Shown here piece by piece: positions 3,431 to 45,225 of a stretch of 64,000 bases of DNA (position 1 is its first letter; every line of letters starts with the position of its first letter). The notes under the pieces were generated by a model that was not told the DNA's origin, did not search any database, and saw only the letters and a list, made by a program, of their open reading frames with translations. Source of the stretch: Streptomyces virginiae (GTDB lineage: Bacteria > Actinomycetota > Actinomycetes > Streptomycetales > Streptomycetaceae); NCBI RefSeq assembly GCF_000720455.1, contig NZ_JOAK01000013.1, positions 1 through 64,000 on the forward strand. The letters run 5' to 3'. Made by a program: the position numbers and the translations under genes.

Positions 3431-3434
3431 ACAT

Positions 3435-3729
3435 CGACCGGCCGGATGCTTTGGTGTCCGGCCCACAAGTGGAGGCTCCGTTCTCCCACCTGACCGCCTT
3501 CCGGGGCGGCGGGTCACCGGTCAGGCGGCATCCATCGTTCCGTACGGACGATGGAAAGCCGCCCGAGTCTGCGCCCCGCGTCTTCGCATGCGGCGGTGCT
3601 CCGGTTGTTTTGGAGCCCCTGCCTGTGCCCGGCGGGGCTTTTTTCATTCTCCCGCCGTGGTCGGTCTGACGGAAATACACGTCAGCGGCTGTCTGCCAGG
3701 CAGTCGTGTGGTGCTACCGAGGAGGATCC
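3435..3729 (+). promoter_or_regulatory. Structured infC leader with attenuator terminator
   Basis: About 295 nt of untranslated leader. Visible structure includes a CCTGACC/GGTCAGG pairing around 3489-3524, a compact hairpin with arms CCATCGT (3532-3538) and ACGATGG (3548-3554), and an intrinsic-type terminator at 3614-3644 (AGCCCC...GGGGCT followed by six T). A T-rich terminator upstream of the coding region is unusual for Streptomyces and suggests transcription attenuation. Leaders controlling infC-rpmI-rplT by L20 or IF3 are known in other phyla; this one does not obviously match the Firmicutes L20 leader. Confidence 0.6.
3614..3644 (+). terminator. T-tailed terminator inside the infC leader
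   Basis: Stem AGCCCC(T)GC pairs with GCGGGGCT, and the right arm runs into TTTTTT at 3639-3644. It is 86 nt upstream of the infC start, so it can act only as an attenuator or as an end point for a short leader RNA. Confidence 0.65.
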
Positions 3730-41920: not shown

Positions 41921-42173
41921 GCAGCGAGGGTATTACGGGCCGAAAGACCCGATGCGCGCGCCCCTTCCCGTACGGCGGCCCCCGCACGGCCGCCGTGCCC
42001 CTCGCCGCGACCGTGGTCTTGACCACAAGGAGCCCCCGCGAAGGCCCCGTCGAGAGCCCCCGGAACGCCCCCCGCCGCGGGCCCGGCGGAGCACGTCGGC
42101 GCAGGTCAGCGGCGAGGGCGGCAGGGTGGGACGGATGACCCCGACCGACCGGTGTTGTCCGGTATGCGGCCGA
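41921..42173. other. Intergenic stretch without a gene
   Basis: GC-rich spacer between the divergent membrane pair and the met leader. It holds the minus-strand promoter near 41930 and nothing else that I can support. Confidence 0.55.
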
Positions 42174-42228
42174 ATAGCGTCCGCTATCCGGACAGCTTTG
42201 ATCGGTGAGGGGGTACGTCTGCTTTACT
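42174..42228 (+). promoter_or_regulatory. met leader promoter with upstream palindrome
   Basis: Palindrome ATAGCG-TC-CGCTAT (42174-42187), flanked by GTCCGG and TCCGGAC, precedes TTGATC (42198-42203) and TTTACT (42223-42228). The spacing of 19 bp is long. TTTACT ends 7 nt before the leader-peptide ATG, so the transcript may be leaderless. The palindrome is a candidate operator for a sulfur regulator. Confidence 0.5.
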
Positions 42229-42235
42229 GGGGCCC

Positions 42236-42322
42236 ATGACCACGACGAGCAGCCGCACCCTTGCGACCGAGGCGACGATGACGCCCGGTGCTCGCTGTAT
42301 GTGTCGAATGTGCGCCTTCTGA
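42236..42322 (+). CDS. Cys/Met-rich leader peptide upstream of metNIQ
   Basis: A 28-residue open frame too short for routine calling. Its C-terminus reads A19-R-C-M-C-R-M-C-A-F28, with Cys codons at 21, 23 and 26 and Met at 22 and 25 immediately before the stop. That concentration of sulfur amino acids is the hallmark of a transcription-attenuation leader, where ribosome stalling reports low charged tRNA. CGAGGC (42268-42273) inside it can pair with GCCTCG (42337-42342), competing with a downstream CTCGC/GCGAG hairpin (42339-42356). Confidence 0.6.
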   Translation: MTTTSSRTLATEATMTPGARCMCRMCAF

Positions 42323-42524
42323 GGGCCCCTTCCTGAGCCTCGCGCCCCGAAGCGAGACCGGCCGCGCCAGTACGTCACCACCTGATGGACAACACGGCCC
42401 ACTCATGCCCCGCGCACGCGTCGAAGCCATCGTTTTCTGACGGTTCGTCCCGTATCGCGTCCCAGATGTTTGCCCCGTGCCCGGCACCCCGCTGCGCCGT
42501 GCACTCGACAGCGACGGAATTCCT
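42323..42524 (+). promoter_or_regulatory. met leader region between peptide and metN
   Basis: About 200 nt with several short pairings, including CTCGC-N8-GCGAG at 42339-42356, but no classical T-tailed terminator. I could not match it to a SAM-I or SAM-IV riboswitch by eye. GTG 42477 is an alternative metN start within it. Confidence 0.4.
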
Positions 42525-43589
42525 GTGATCACCACATCGGGCCTCACGAAGGTCTACCAGTCCCGTGGCCGCGAGGTCACCGCCCTGGACGGCGTCGACC
42601 TCCACGTCCGCGAGGGCGAGGTCTACGGAGTCATCGGCCAGAGCGGCGCCGGCAAGTCCTCCCTGATCCGCTGCGTGAACCTGCTGGAGCGCCCCACCAC
42701 CGGCACCGTGCACGTCGACGGTGTCGACCTCACCGCGCTGGCCGGCCGCGGCCGCCGCGCCGGCAAGGAACTCCGCGAGGCCCGCAGCCGTATCGGCATG
42801 GTCTTCCAGCACTTCAACCTGCTGTCCTCGCGCACCGTCCAGGCCAACGTCGAGCTGCCCCTGGAGATCCTCGGCGTCTCCGGCCGCGAGCGCTCCCGCA
42901 AGGCCCTGGAACTCCTCGACCTCGTCGGCCTCGCCGACAAGGCCAAGGCCTACCCCACCCAGCTCTCCGGCGGCCAGAAGCAGCGCGTCGGCATCGCCCG
43001 CGCCCTGGCCGGCGACCCCAAGGTGCTGCTCTCCGACGAGGCCACCAGCGCCCTCGACCCCGAGACCACCCGCTCCATCCTGAAGCTGCTGCGCGACCTC
43101 AACGAGCAGCTCGGCCTCACCGTGCTCCTCATCACGCACGAGATGGACGTCGTCAAGACCGTCTGCGACTCGGCCGCCCTGATGAAGAAGGGCCGGATCG
43201 TCGAGTCCGGCACCGTCGCCGAACTGCTCGCCACCCCCGGCTCCGAGCTCGCCGGCGAGCTGTTCCCGGTCACCGGCGCCGCCTCCGGCCCCGACCGCAC
43301 GGTCGTCGACGTCACCTTCCACGGCGAGGCCGCCGCCCAGCCGGTCATCTCGCAGCTCTCGCGCACGTACAACATCGACATCTCGATCCTCGGCGCCGCG
43401 ATGGACACCGTCGCCGGCCGGCTCATCGGCCGCATGCGCATCGAACTGCCCGGCCGCTACGAGGACAACGTCGTGCCGGTGGGCTTCCTGCGCGAGCAGG
43501 GCCTCCAGGTCGACGTCGTCGACGAGGCCGACGGGATCGACAACGAACTGGCCGAACTGACCGAGCTGGCCAAGGATGGTGCCAAGTGA
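42525..43589 (+). CDS. metN: Methionine ABC transporter ATP-binding protein
   Basis: A 354-residue ATPase of the methionine uptake ABC system. Walker A GQSGAGKSS, signature LSGGQKQRVGIARAL and Walker B KVLLSDEATSALDP are intact; the C-terminal NIL domain (about 265-345) is the regulatory methionine-binding module. GTG 42525 (reading VITTSGLTKVY) gives the family N-terminus; GTG 42477 would add 16 residues. Stop overlaps the metI GTG by 4 nt. Confidence 0.97.
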   Translation: MITTSGLTKVYQSRGREVTALDGVDLHVREGEVYGVIGQSGAGKSSLIRCVNLLERPTTGTVHVDGVDLTALAGRGRRAGKELREARSRIGMVFQHFNLLSSRTVQANVELPLEILGVSGRERSRKALELLDLVGLADKAKAYPTQLSGGQKQRVGIARALAGDPKVLLSDEATSALDPETTRSILKLLRDLNEQLGLTVLLITHEMDVVKTVCDSAALMKKGRIVESGTVAELLATPGSELAGELFPVTGAASGPDRTVVDVTFHGEAAAQPVISQLSRTYNIDISILGAAMDTVAGRLIGRMRIELPGRYEDNVVPVGFLREQGLQVDVVDEADGIDNELAELTELAKDGAK

Positions 43590-44254
43590 CCTGGTCCGAG
43601 ATGCAGCCCCTGCTCACCCAGGGCACCTACGACACCCTCTACATGGTGCTGTGGTCCACCCTGGTGACCGTGCTCGGCGGACTGCCCATCGGCATCCTGC
43701 TGGTCCTCACCGACAAGGGCGGCCTGCTGCAGAACCAGCCGCTCAACAAGGTCCTCGGCGTGATCGTGAACATAGGCCGCTCGCTGCCGTTCATCATCCT
43801 GCTGATCTTCCTGATCCCGGTCACCACCGCGGTCGTCGGCACCTTCATCGGCCCCACCGCCATGATCGTCCCGCTCGCCATCGGCGCCATCCCCTTCTTC
43901 GCCCGGCTCGTCGAGACCGCCGTCCGCGAGGTGGACCACGGCCTGATCGAGGCCGTCGAGTCCATGGGCGGCGGCATCCCGACCCTGGTCGGCAAGGTCC
44001 TCCTGCCGCAGGCCCTGCCCTCCCTGGTCGCCGGCGTCACCACCACCGTCATCACCCTCGTCGGCTACTCCGCCATGGCGGGCGCCGTCGGCGGCGAAGG
44101 CCTCGGCTCCAAGGCCATCACGTACGGCTTCCAGCGCTTCGAGACCGGCTTCATGGTCGCCACCGTCGTGGTCCTCATCGTCCTCGTCACCGTGGTCCAG
44201 CTGATCGGCGACGGCGTCGTACGCCTCCTGGCCCGCCGCGGCCGGACGGCCTGA
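43586..44254 (+). CDS. metI: Methionine ABC transporter permease
   Basis: A 222-residue permease with about five membrane segments and the EAA loop (EVDHGLIEAVESMGGG) that contacts MetN. GTG start overlaps metN by 4 nt. Full family length. Confidence 0.97.
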   Translation: MTWSEMQPLLTQGTYDTLYMVLWSTLVTVLGGLPIGILLVLTDKGGLLQNQPLNKVLGVIVNIGRSLPFIILLIFLIPVTTAVVGTFIGPTAMIVPLAIGAIPFFARLVETAVREVDHGLIEAVESMGGGIPTLVGKVLLPQALPSLVAGVTTTVITLVGYSAMAGAVGGEGLGSKAITYGFQRFETGFMVATVVVLIVLVTVVQLIGDGVVRLLARRGRTA

Positions 44255-44367
44255 CCGCGACCACGGGCCGCGGCCCCCACCGATTTCCCCCATAGAGCCC
44301 GCACTTGTCGTGCTTGGGCCACCACCAGCAAGTCCTCGGTACTTGTTCAGCAAGAAAGGCACTCTTC

Positions 44368-45225
44368 GTGCGTAAGAACATCAAGCTCACCGCCCTCGCC
44401 GCCACCGCCACCGCGCTGACCCTCGGCCTCACCGCCTGCGGCAGCTCCTCGGACCCGTCCTCCGCCAAGGCCGACGGCGGCAAGGCCGACGAGAGCAAGC
44501 CGCTCGTCATAGCGGCCTCCCCGAGCCCCCACGCCGACATCCTGAACTTCGTGAAGGACAAGCTCGCGGCCAAGGAAGGCCTCAAGCTGGAGGTCAAGGA
44601 GTTCACGGACTACGTCCTGCCCAACACCGCCACCGAGCAGGGCCAGGTCGACGGCAACTACTTCCAGCACAAGCCGTACCTCGACGACTTCAACAAGAAG
44701 AACAACACCCACGTCGTCCCCGTCGTGAACGTGCACCTGGAGCCCCTCGGCCTCTACTCCAAGAAGGTCAAGGCACTCTCCGACATCAAGGCCGGCCAGA
44801 CCATCGCCGTCCCCAACGACACCACCAACGAGGGCCGCGCCCTCCAGCTGCTCGCCGCGAACAACCTGATCACCCTGAAGGAGGGTGTCGGCACCAGCGC
44901 CAAGCTGTCCGACATCACCGACAAGAAGGGCCTGGAGTTCAAGGAGCTGGAGGCCGCCACCGTCCCGCGCGCCCTGGGCGACGTGGACGCCGCGGTGATC
45001 AACGGCAACTACGCCCTCGAGGCCAACCTGGCGCCCGCCAAGGACGCGCTCGTCCTGGAGAAGGCCGAGGGCAACCCCTACGCCAACTTCCTCGCGGTCA
45101 AGGACGGCAACCAGAACGACCCGCGGATCCAGAAGCTCGCCAAGCTCCTGAACTCCGACGACGTCAAGAAGTTCATCGAGGAGAAGTACCAGGGCTCGGT
45201 CGTCCCGGCCTTCGGCACCTCCTGA
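44368..45225 (+). CDS. metQ: Methionine-binding lipoprotein
   Basis: A 285-residue substrate-binding lipoprotein with lipobox LTAC (Cys24). The NlpA/MetQ core shows ASPSPHADILNFVKD, FTDYVLPNTATEQGQVDGNYFQHK and QTIAVPNDTTNEGRALQLL. It delivers D- or L-methionine (or sulfoxide) to MetNI. GTG 44368 has GAAAGG 8 nt upstream. The three genes end at a terminator at 45266. Confidence 0.97.
   Translation: MRKNIKLTALAATATALTLGLTACGSSSDPSSAKADGGKADESKPLVIAASPSPHADILNFVKDKLAAKEGLKLEVKEFTDYVLPNTATEQGQVDGNYFQHKPYLDDFNKKNNTHVVPVVNVHLEPLGLYSKKVKALSDIKAGQTIAVPNDTTNEGRALQLLAANNLITLKEGVGTSAKLSDITDKKGLEFKELEAATVPRALGDVDAAVINGNYALEANLAPAKDALVLEKAEGNPYANFLAVKDGNQNDPRIQKLAKLLNSDDVKKFIEEKYQGSVVPAFGTS

Follow-up and report, generated by a model that had tools for sequence, protein, structure and literature searches.

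Upstream of the methionine uptake operon metNIQ of Streptomyces virginiae lies a 28-codon open reading frame that ends in a cluster of cysteine and methionine codons, which raises the question of whether this short gene controls the transporter behind it and which amino acid it reads. We studied the locus in a window of 64,000 nucleotides (contig NZ_JOAK01000013.1 of an 8.3 Mb genome), for which an initial annotation had proposed a peptide attenuator and a mutually exclusive RNA switch. Comparison across genomes brings out the ORF, its tail, three predicted RNA hairpins (P1, P2 and P3), a promoter palindrome and the link to metN (Table 1). The ORF is probably a leaderless leader peptide gene, metL, that gates metNIQ by ribosome-mediated attenuation according to the supply of Cys-tRNA and Met-tRNA, beside a control at the promoter.

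The leader ORF and its association with metN

The sequence bears out the reading frame that had been called, with an ATG at 42236, a TGA stop at 42320-42322 and the C-terminus Cys-Met-Cys-Arg-Met-Cys-Ala-Phe. The ATG follows TTTACT after 7 nt, as annotated, and metN, recognized by its ABC_tran and NIL domains, begins 202 nt after the leader stop, in line with the distance of about 200 nt given at first. The spacing to the -10 element together with the report for S. lividans (see below) suggests that the ORF is leaderless. TTTACT was found in 140 of 144 upstream regions, the Streptomyces leaders having been extracted with that motif; the extraction missed two of 32 later loci, both from Streptomyces, with TTAACT or TTTAAT instead (L135, L152). 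Among relatives, the stop codon is TGA or TAG, set by a one-base insertion (CTGAGGG vs CTAGAGGG; window position 42320), and a Shine-Dalgarno-like GAGGG run is mostly retained directly 3' of the stop despite the insertion.

The leader itself is already published. The window ORF is the ortholog of metL (SLIV_29928), which the reannotation of S. lividans TK24 places before metNIQ as a leaderless gene for the peptide MSTTSDRTPATEATTTPGARCMCRRMCAF and reports as a methionine attenuator with several methionines and threonines; it has no typical Rho-independent terminator, and its termination was described as unclear (PMC8079986). Both leaders share the place before metNIQ, the leaderless start and the lack of a clear terminator. 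The published account deals with one strain in a few sentences, and its passages on metL hold no analysis of conservation, cysteines, covariation, codons or an operator. Our search, which covered few subscription papers, found no literature on this leader beyond that study. A short ORF directly upstream of metNIQ, the Cys/Met/Arg tail and the predicted leaderless start place the window locus among the metL leaders. New here are the linkage to metN across most sampled genera of the family and the occurrence in Actinomadura and Glycomyces; judged by the alignments, this barely described leader is a conserved Cys/Met/Arg variant with an RNA element of its own.

DNA matches to the leader region were obtained in 142 of 150 Streptomyces genomes, and a promoter-to-hairpin pattern matched 206 of 246 genomes. 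At an E-value of 0.001, a covariance model recovered the leader from 208 of the 297 genomes examined within the family, spread over 12 of 17 genera; in two further genera, whose MetN is 70 % identical (G526, G529), it was recognized by a weak model score (E 0.0155) and by eye. Within the order, 222 of 245 genomes gave a match at E 0.01, and the matches listed were without exception from that family. The leader accompanies metN in 14 of the 17 sampled genera of the family, and no such MetN was found in the three remaining ones (G527, G534, G541), each represented by one genome. In 151 of the 152 extracted leaders metN lies 147-360 nt downstream, and the remaining contig ends too soon. MetN was absent at E 1e-60 in 11 of 13 examined Streptomyces genomes that lack the leader, a set from which two incomplete genomes had been left out; in G008 it misses the first 42 residues, the contig apparently ending there, and G232, without a leader of this type, has MetN only as 47-53 % identical paralogs. 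That leader and metN occur together and mostly vanish together was counted in favor of attenuation.

A scan of named genomes with TGYCGAATGTGYNNNNNNTGAGGGCCC returned at least 118 stretches. Here, metN was located 50-700 nt downstream in all 109 that could be assessed (9 were too short to tell), and the P2 loop was found by a strict expression in 111 of these 118, with a near form in most of the other 7. Among the 80 matches listed by name, 77 are from Streptomyces, two from Actinomadura and one from Glycomyces; the metN homologs downstream of the Actinomadura and Glycomyces leaders are 67, 64 and 61 % identical, and these leaders carry the P2 hairpin, a feature outside the search pattern. A pattern scan of the whole class matched 40 of 394 genomes; of these, 39 belong to the same genus and one (G905) to a different family, and the control with the reversed pattern gave zero among the matches listed. 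In G905 and its congener G471, metN directly follows the leader. Outside the genus, distant DNA matches turned up in 15 members of the class; the one in G471 is a real leader, and the others look like chance similarities over short stretches (L087 and L088 gave no leader). At the search settings used, the leader is sparse outside its family. A second short ORF was seen by eye between P2 and metN in two Actinomadura genomes and two genomes of one genus (L228, L248, L356, L357), and its product contains HLLSHAPYPPG in all four.

Table 1. Position of the leader, its predicted control elements and the metNIQ genes in the window.
Feature	Position	Strand	Basis
Degenerate second palindrome copy	42156-42172	.	
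15-bp palindrome GTCCGCTATCCGGAC, probable IclR/NdgR-type operator	42179-42193	.	conservation and likeness to NdgR sites
-10 element TTTACT	42223-42228	+	transcription start predicted at A of ATG (leaderless)
Leader peptide ORF, metL ortholog, MTTTSSRTLATEATMTPGARCMCRMCAF	42236-42322	+	frame-preserving length changes and conserved tail
Hairpin P1 within ORF, codons 10-19, GC.ACCG.A.GGCG:CGCC.CGGU.GC	42263-42291	+	RNAalifold consensus, 70 leaders
Putative sensing codons TGT ATG TGT CGA ATG TGC (Cys Met Cys Arg Met Cys)	42296-42313	+	tail statistics, codon rarity
GGGCCCC right after stop	42323-42329	+	predicted pseudoknot of GGGC with GCCC of the P2 loop
C-rich untranslated stretch, stop to metN	42323-42524	+	candidate Rho-loading region
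Hairpin P2, CTCGC-GCCCCGAA-GCGAG	42339-42356	+	loop and pairing across 252 post-stop stretches
Hairpin P3 just 5' of metN, GTGC...GCAC	42477-42504	+	outer pairs versus shuffles
metN, methionine ABC transporter ATPase	42525-43589	+	Pfam ABC_tran and NIL; GTG start
metI, permease (approximate start)	43589-44254	+	BPD_transp_1 match in frame ending at 44254
metQ, substrate-binding lipoprotein	44305-45225	+	Lipoprotein_9, E 1.5e-91

RNA elements and the output of the leader

The consensus fold of 70 leaders contained two hairpins, P1 within the ORF and P2 behind its stop, which covary according to the base changes in the alignment. Double changes were present in 4 of the 14 pairs, 3 of them among the 10 pairs of P1. 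With P2 counted as 7 bp, six pairs of P1 and P2 combined had changed on both sides compared to 2.4 in shuffles, and none of 500 shuffles reached this value. Compared to synonymous recodings, P1 is barely more stable (mean z -0.81 for Streptomyces and -0.24 for the other leaders). Predicted folds of 28 leaders from other genera, read by eye, mostly contain a hairpin at the same place. The P2 loop GCCCCGAA was found in 242 of 252 distinct post-stop stretches, with five pairs formed in 219 of the 242. Pairing in P2 exceeded all 2000 shuffles, which leave the relatedness of the sequences in place, at pair 4 (238 vs at most 234), pair 5 (229 vs 227) and pair 6 (67 vs 60, mostly unpaired), while pairs 1-3 and 7 stayed within the shuffle range. 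The Glycomyces stem reads GCCGC:GCGGC in place of CUCGC:GCGAG. Of the 10 stretches without the loop, four come from leaders of a single other genus that have an entirely different sequence behind the stop.

Directly behind the stop, 236 of the 252 stretches start with GGGCCC or AGGGCC, in a set enriched by a pattern that contains GGGCCC. Geometrically, this GGGC could form a pseudoknot with GCCC in the P2 loop, as a ribosome at the last Cys codon or the stop should cover GGGC. Given strands with almost no variation and a data set selected in part by the GGGCCC pattern, we treat the pseudoknot as a prediction. The sequence comparison delimits an apparent cassette of CGA-AUG-UGY, stop, GGGCCC and GCCCCGAA hairpin that is common to distant actinobacterial families, the rest of the peptide being free to change. 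The third hairpin, P3, was scored by anchored arms because its variable loops defeat an automatic consensus fold; 116 of 133 sequences could be scored and 17 could not. All four outer pairs were complete in 96 of the 116 (2000 shuffles: mean 78.9, maximum 85), and the arms read GUGC:GCAC 76 times and GUAC:GUAC 10 times.

The initial annotation had explained the leader by a pairing of CGAGGC in the ORF (42268-42273) with GCCTCG (42337-42342), mutually exclusive with the hairpin at 42339-42356. All three are present as sequence, but the switch itself was rejected on pair counts and masked folding. The two strands pair in 91.4 % of the cells of the pair count, yet they do not covary (216 of 500 shuffles were as good), and the pairing is absent by eye in genera whose ORF reads ACCGGC there. 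When a ribosome footprint was masked at codon 21, 23 or 26 or at the stop, the probability of this pairing exceeded 0.5 in at most 3 of 84 leaders. P2 stayed formed at every masked position (mean probability 0.77-0.95), so that no structural switch was seen. CGAGGC is instead part of the covarying P1 hairpin. Pairings of codons 16-19 with the stop region (GGTGC:GCGCC, GCCC:GGGC) were dropped because they had no double changes. Among the chosen pairings tested, no trp-type antiterminator with covariation support was found.

A pattern scan of 42140-42560 yielded 0 intrinsic T-tailed terminators, in agreement with the earlier remark that none is visible, and there is no U-tract after P3 in the alignments. 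Lacking the U-tract terminator and the covarying antiterminator, metL is not a classical trp-type attenuator. From the stop to metN, the skew of C over G was above 0.1 in all 92 scored leaders (mean 0.22); the value for this leader is 0.212, and 3.4 % of 5104 segments of the same length (202 nt) from both strands of the window score at least as high. Such a skew would suit Rho termination before metN. In Rfam, the window leader region had no match at the gathering score and two far sub-threshold matches only. A leader ORF with regulatory codons and a conserved RNA element including a predicted pseudoknot is also described for the LEU element of actinobacterial leuA leaders, which differs from metL in responding to leucine and in a base stem that includes the Shine-Dalgarno box of leuA (PMC1262725); no sequence relation between the two is apparent.

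The conserved tail and the signal it may read

The peptide comparison was based on 152 ORFs with 105 distinct products, or 106 with the G529 peptide added. L135 and L152 with their other -10 boxes, L166 from another genus (MTTTNRRCHATEATTPGVRCMPGRRRACRMCD) and the leaders of Actinomadura, Glycomyces, G905 and G471 were left out of the tail counts; all of them retain Cys and Met in the tail. While the N-terminal half varies strongly between genera, the tail stays rich in Cys, Arg and Met. Within the last 12 residues, Cys occurs at least once in 106 of 106 peptides and at least twice in 101, and Met at least once in 105 and at least twice in 73. The mean tail content per 11 residues is 2.8 Cys, 2.7 Arg and 1.75 Met, with a background of 0.9 % Cys and 1.4 % Met in the window ORFs; as Arg is as common as Cys, it could belong to the signal. 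A last Arg-Met pair is present in 105 of 106 peptides, followed by Cys (84), Arg (20) or His (1), and is separated from the stop by three residues in 100 of the 105. Several longer peptides repeat R-M-C in their tails (for example RMCRMCHMCRMCA and GCRCMCRSCQMCRMCGC), whereas others hold unrelated inserts instead. A loss of the last Cys was not significantly compensated by an upstream Cys in the compared peptides (p 0.09).

The tail also favors rare codons. The last Arg-Met is written CGA-ATG in 102 of 104 cases, although CGA makes up 2.8 % of 981 Arg codons in the window ORFs, and TGT accounts for 200 of 294 tail Cys codons compared to 7.8 % of 115 in the background, which comprised 29 long window ORFs picked by the GC content of their codon positions. 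CGAATG is in the ORF frame at 105 of 105 occurrences (first 140 nt of 105 distinct leaders), the last Arg-Met being located at nine different distances from the start codon. In contrast to these in-frame length changes, the distance from the stop to P2 is spread over all three phases (58, 20, 16). The preserved frame argues for coding conservation and against a chance ORF. In addition, synonymous recodings of the tail are on average more structured than the tail itself (mean z 1.79). Elsewhere in the genome there is no excess of Cys-Met-Cys copies: TGYATGTGYMGN had 7 matches including the window's own and 27 in the reversed control. With Cys and Met codons both conserved in relatives, the idea of a leaderless, attenuator-like leader for metNIQ holds up. 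The conserved enrichment of these codons close to the stop is a general trait of attenuators, and judging by its sequence metL probably works like an amino-acid leader attenuator, one that lies outside the known Cys-leader families; in NCBIfam and Pfam the peptide had no family match.

From this arrangement we infer stalling, the sign of the control, a contribution of Rho and the sensing of both amino acids. Transcription would start at the ATG from a promoter with an NdgR-like operator. A passing ribosome would melt P1 and reach the little-structured Cys/Met/Arg stretch with its rare codons (TGT, CGA). If Cys-tRNA or Met-tRNA is short, it would slow down or stall near the stop, over or just before GGGCCCC; if both are plentiful, it would terminate and depart, P1 would re-form and the C-rich stretch with P2 would lie bare. 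Rho could then stop transcription on the bare RNA before metN, which a parked ribosome would prevent in a tna-like manner. In the tna leader of Escherichia coli, the position of the ribosome near the leader stop decides on Rho-dependent termination, and free tryptophan is sensed through nascent-peptide arrest. We take tna as a model for the output of metL, apart from its sensing of free tryptophan, in which tna differs. Alternatively, the GGGC:GCCC pseudoknot between the post-stop strand and the P2 loop could pass the signal on to metN. If Streptomyces can convert methionine into cysteine by transsulphuration, methionine import would be sensible under cysteine shortage.

In a more specific version, which we put forward tentatively, metL is a two-input sulphur attenuator whose Arg-Met-Cys units read both Cys-tRNA and Met-tRNA. 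The near-constant and poorly decoded CGA would fix the ribosome three codons before the stop over the GGGC of the pseudoknot, and occupancy of GGGC rather than a terminator hairpin would be the switch.

The presence of Cys in every tail also accommodates an attenuator of the mycobacterial poly-Cys type, with only Cys-tRNA mattering and Met as a bystander, a reading we consider possible but doubtful. Mycobacteria possess leaderless poly-cysteine uORFs upstream of sulphur genes (PMC4633059; Canestrari 2020 as cited in PMC9094748), and metL resembles these and the families NF042933, NF042934 and NF042936 in its leaderless start, the Cys codons near the stop and the sulphur genes downstream. The same genome contains seven other NF042934 leaders above cut-off (L198-L204), some of them near lookalikes, by eye, of cysteine synthase, thiosulphate sulphurtransferase, sulphatase and sulphonate-binding protein. 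In contrast to the poly-Cys uORFs, metL mixes Met and Arg with Cys, contains P1 and P2 and is the leader of metNIQ. Neither the window peptide nor any of three relatives gave a match to the three families even at E 10, longer tails gain Met along with Cys, and the Met of Arg-Met is lost in only 1 of 106 peptides. In G232, a different leader, MRIPLMWRRVVDLRRVASSLCR, precedes the 53 % identical metN paralog (L195) and weakly matches NF042934 (E 1.7e-4, below cut-off), a case of two unlike Cys leaders for related transporters.

The near-constant CGA codon and the fixed distance of Arg-Met to the stop would likewise be explained by a codon-specific or nascent-chain arrest at CGA-AUG-UGY, in which slow CGA pauses the ribosome and the outcome depends on the downstream pseudoknot or on a ligand. 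The presence of GGGCCC and a GCCCCGAA-type loop in Actinomadura and Glycomyces agrees with this, but the part of the peptide before the tail differs greatly from genus to genus, unlike in known arrest peptides, no ligand is suggested, and the pseudoknot strands vary too little for covariation testing. We regard an arrest of this kind as conceivable rather than expected.

A plain methionine attenuator, with sensing Met codons and incidental Cys, is unlikely, even though metNIQ imports methionine, Arg-Met is the most constant residue pair near the stop, and the S. lividans study chose the name metL and stressed methionine and threonine (PMC8079986). In some leaders a Leu, Thr, Arg, Val or Pro takes the place of the first tail Met while a flanking Cys stays, tail Cys exceeds Met, and a single leader lacks tail Met altogether but has four tail Cys.

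The promoter palindrome and the regulatory context

Ribosome-mediated attenuation would operate beside a promoter that carries its own conserved element. The palindrome, searched as GTCCGNNATNCGGAC with up to two mismatches, was found in 128 of 144 distinct upstream regions (109 of 116 in Streptomyces, 19 of 28 elsewhere). It starts at -56 to -59 in 102 of them, at -66 to -68 in 25 and at -78 in a single case. One turn of the helix separates the two main positions, as would be the case for an activator or repressor bound to the DNA. Its GTCC-N7-GGAC form is shared with NdgR sites, whose ChIP-seq motifs include GTCCGCCATGCGGAC (PMC4340878, Table 1). The NdgR regulon comprises cysteine genes and metF, and the regulon table, drawn from 19 ChIP-seq loci, does not list metNIQ (PMC4340878). 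Control by the promoter alone, with an ORF devoid of a regulatory role, is very improbable, because the palindrome with its fixed helical phase and NdgR likeness leaves the frame-preserving tail conservation, P1, P2 and P3 unexplained and metNIQ is missing from that table. In S. coelicolor, SCO1557-1559 are up-regulated together with cysteine genes under oxidative stress, dependent on HbpS-SenS-SenR (PMC4991794), which can be seen as a functional echo in favor of sulphur attenuation.

As far as is known, most leader peptides that act as attenuators respond to a single amino acid or pathway. In metL, two sulphur amino acids and a rare Arg codon are conserved together in one peptide, joined to an RNA element distinct from terminators and from the known riboswitches. 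Attenuation without a terminator in actinobacteria, a long-open question, becomes directly testable, since the cassette is short, laboratory strains have an ortholog and natural variants separate its parts. The leader could account for a coupling of methionine import with cysteine supply in Streptomyces, which bears on redox stress and on antibiotic precursor supply.

Copies of the palindrome elsewhere in the genome (13 loci looked at) are mostly next to genes without an evident link. One lies just 5' of the melC1-melC2 tyrosinase operon (Pfam; L036:1500-2781, contig C6 near 326970); tyrosinase is methionine-induced in some Streptomyces. Others precede the genes of an M28 peptidase (L032) and an amino-acid permease (L033). 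The window also contains the Streptomyces sRNA Scr1601 of Rfam at 3433-3645 (154.5 bits).
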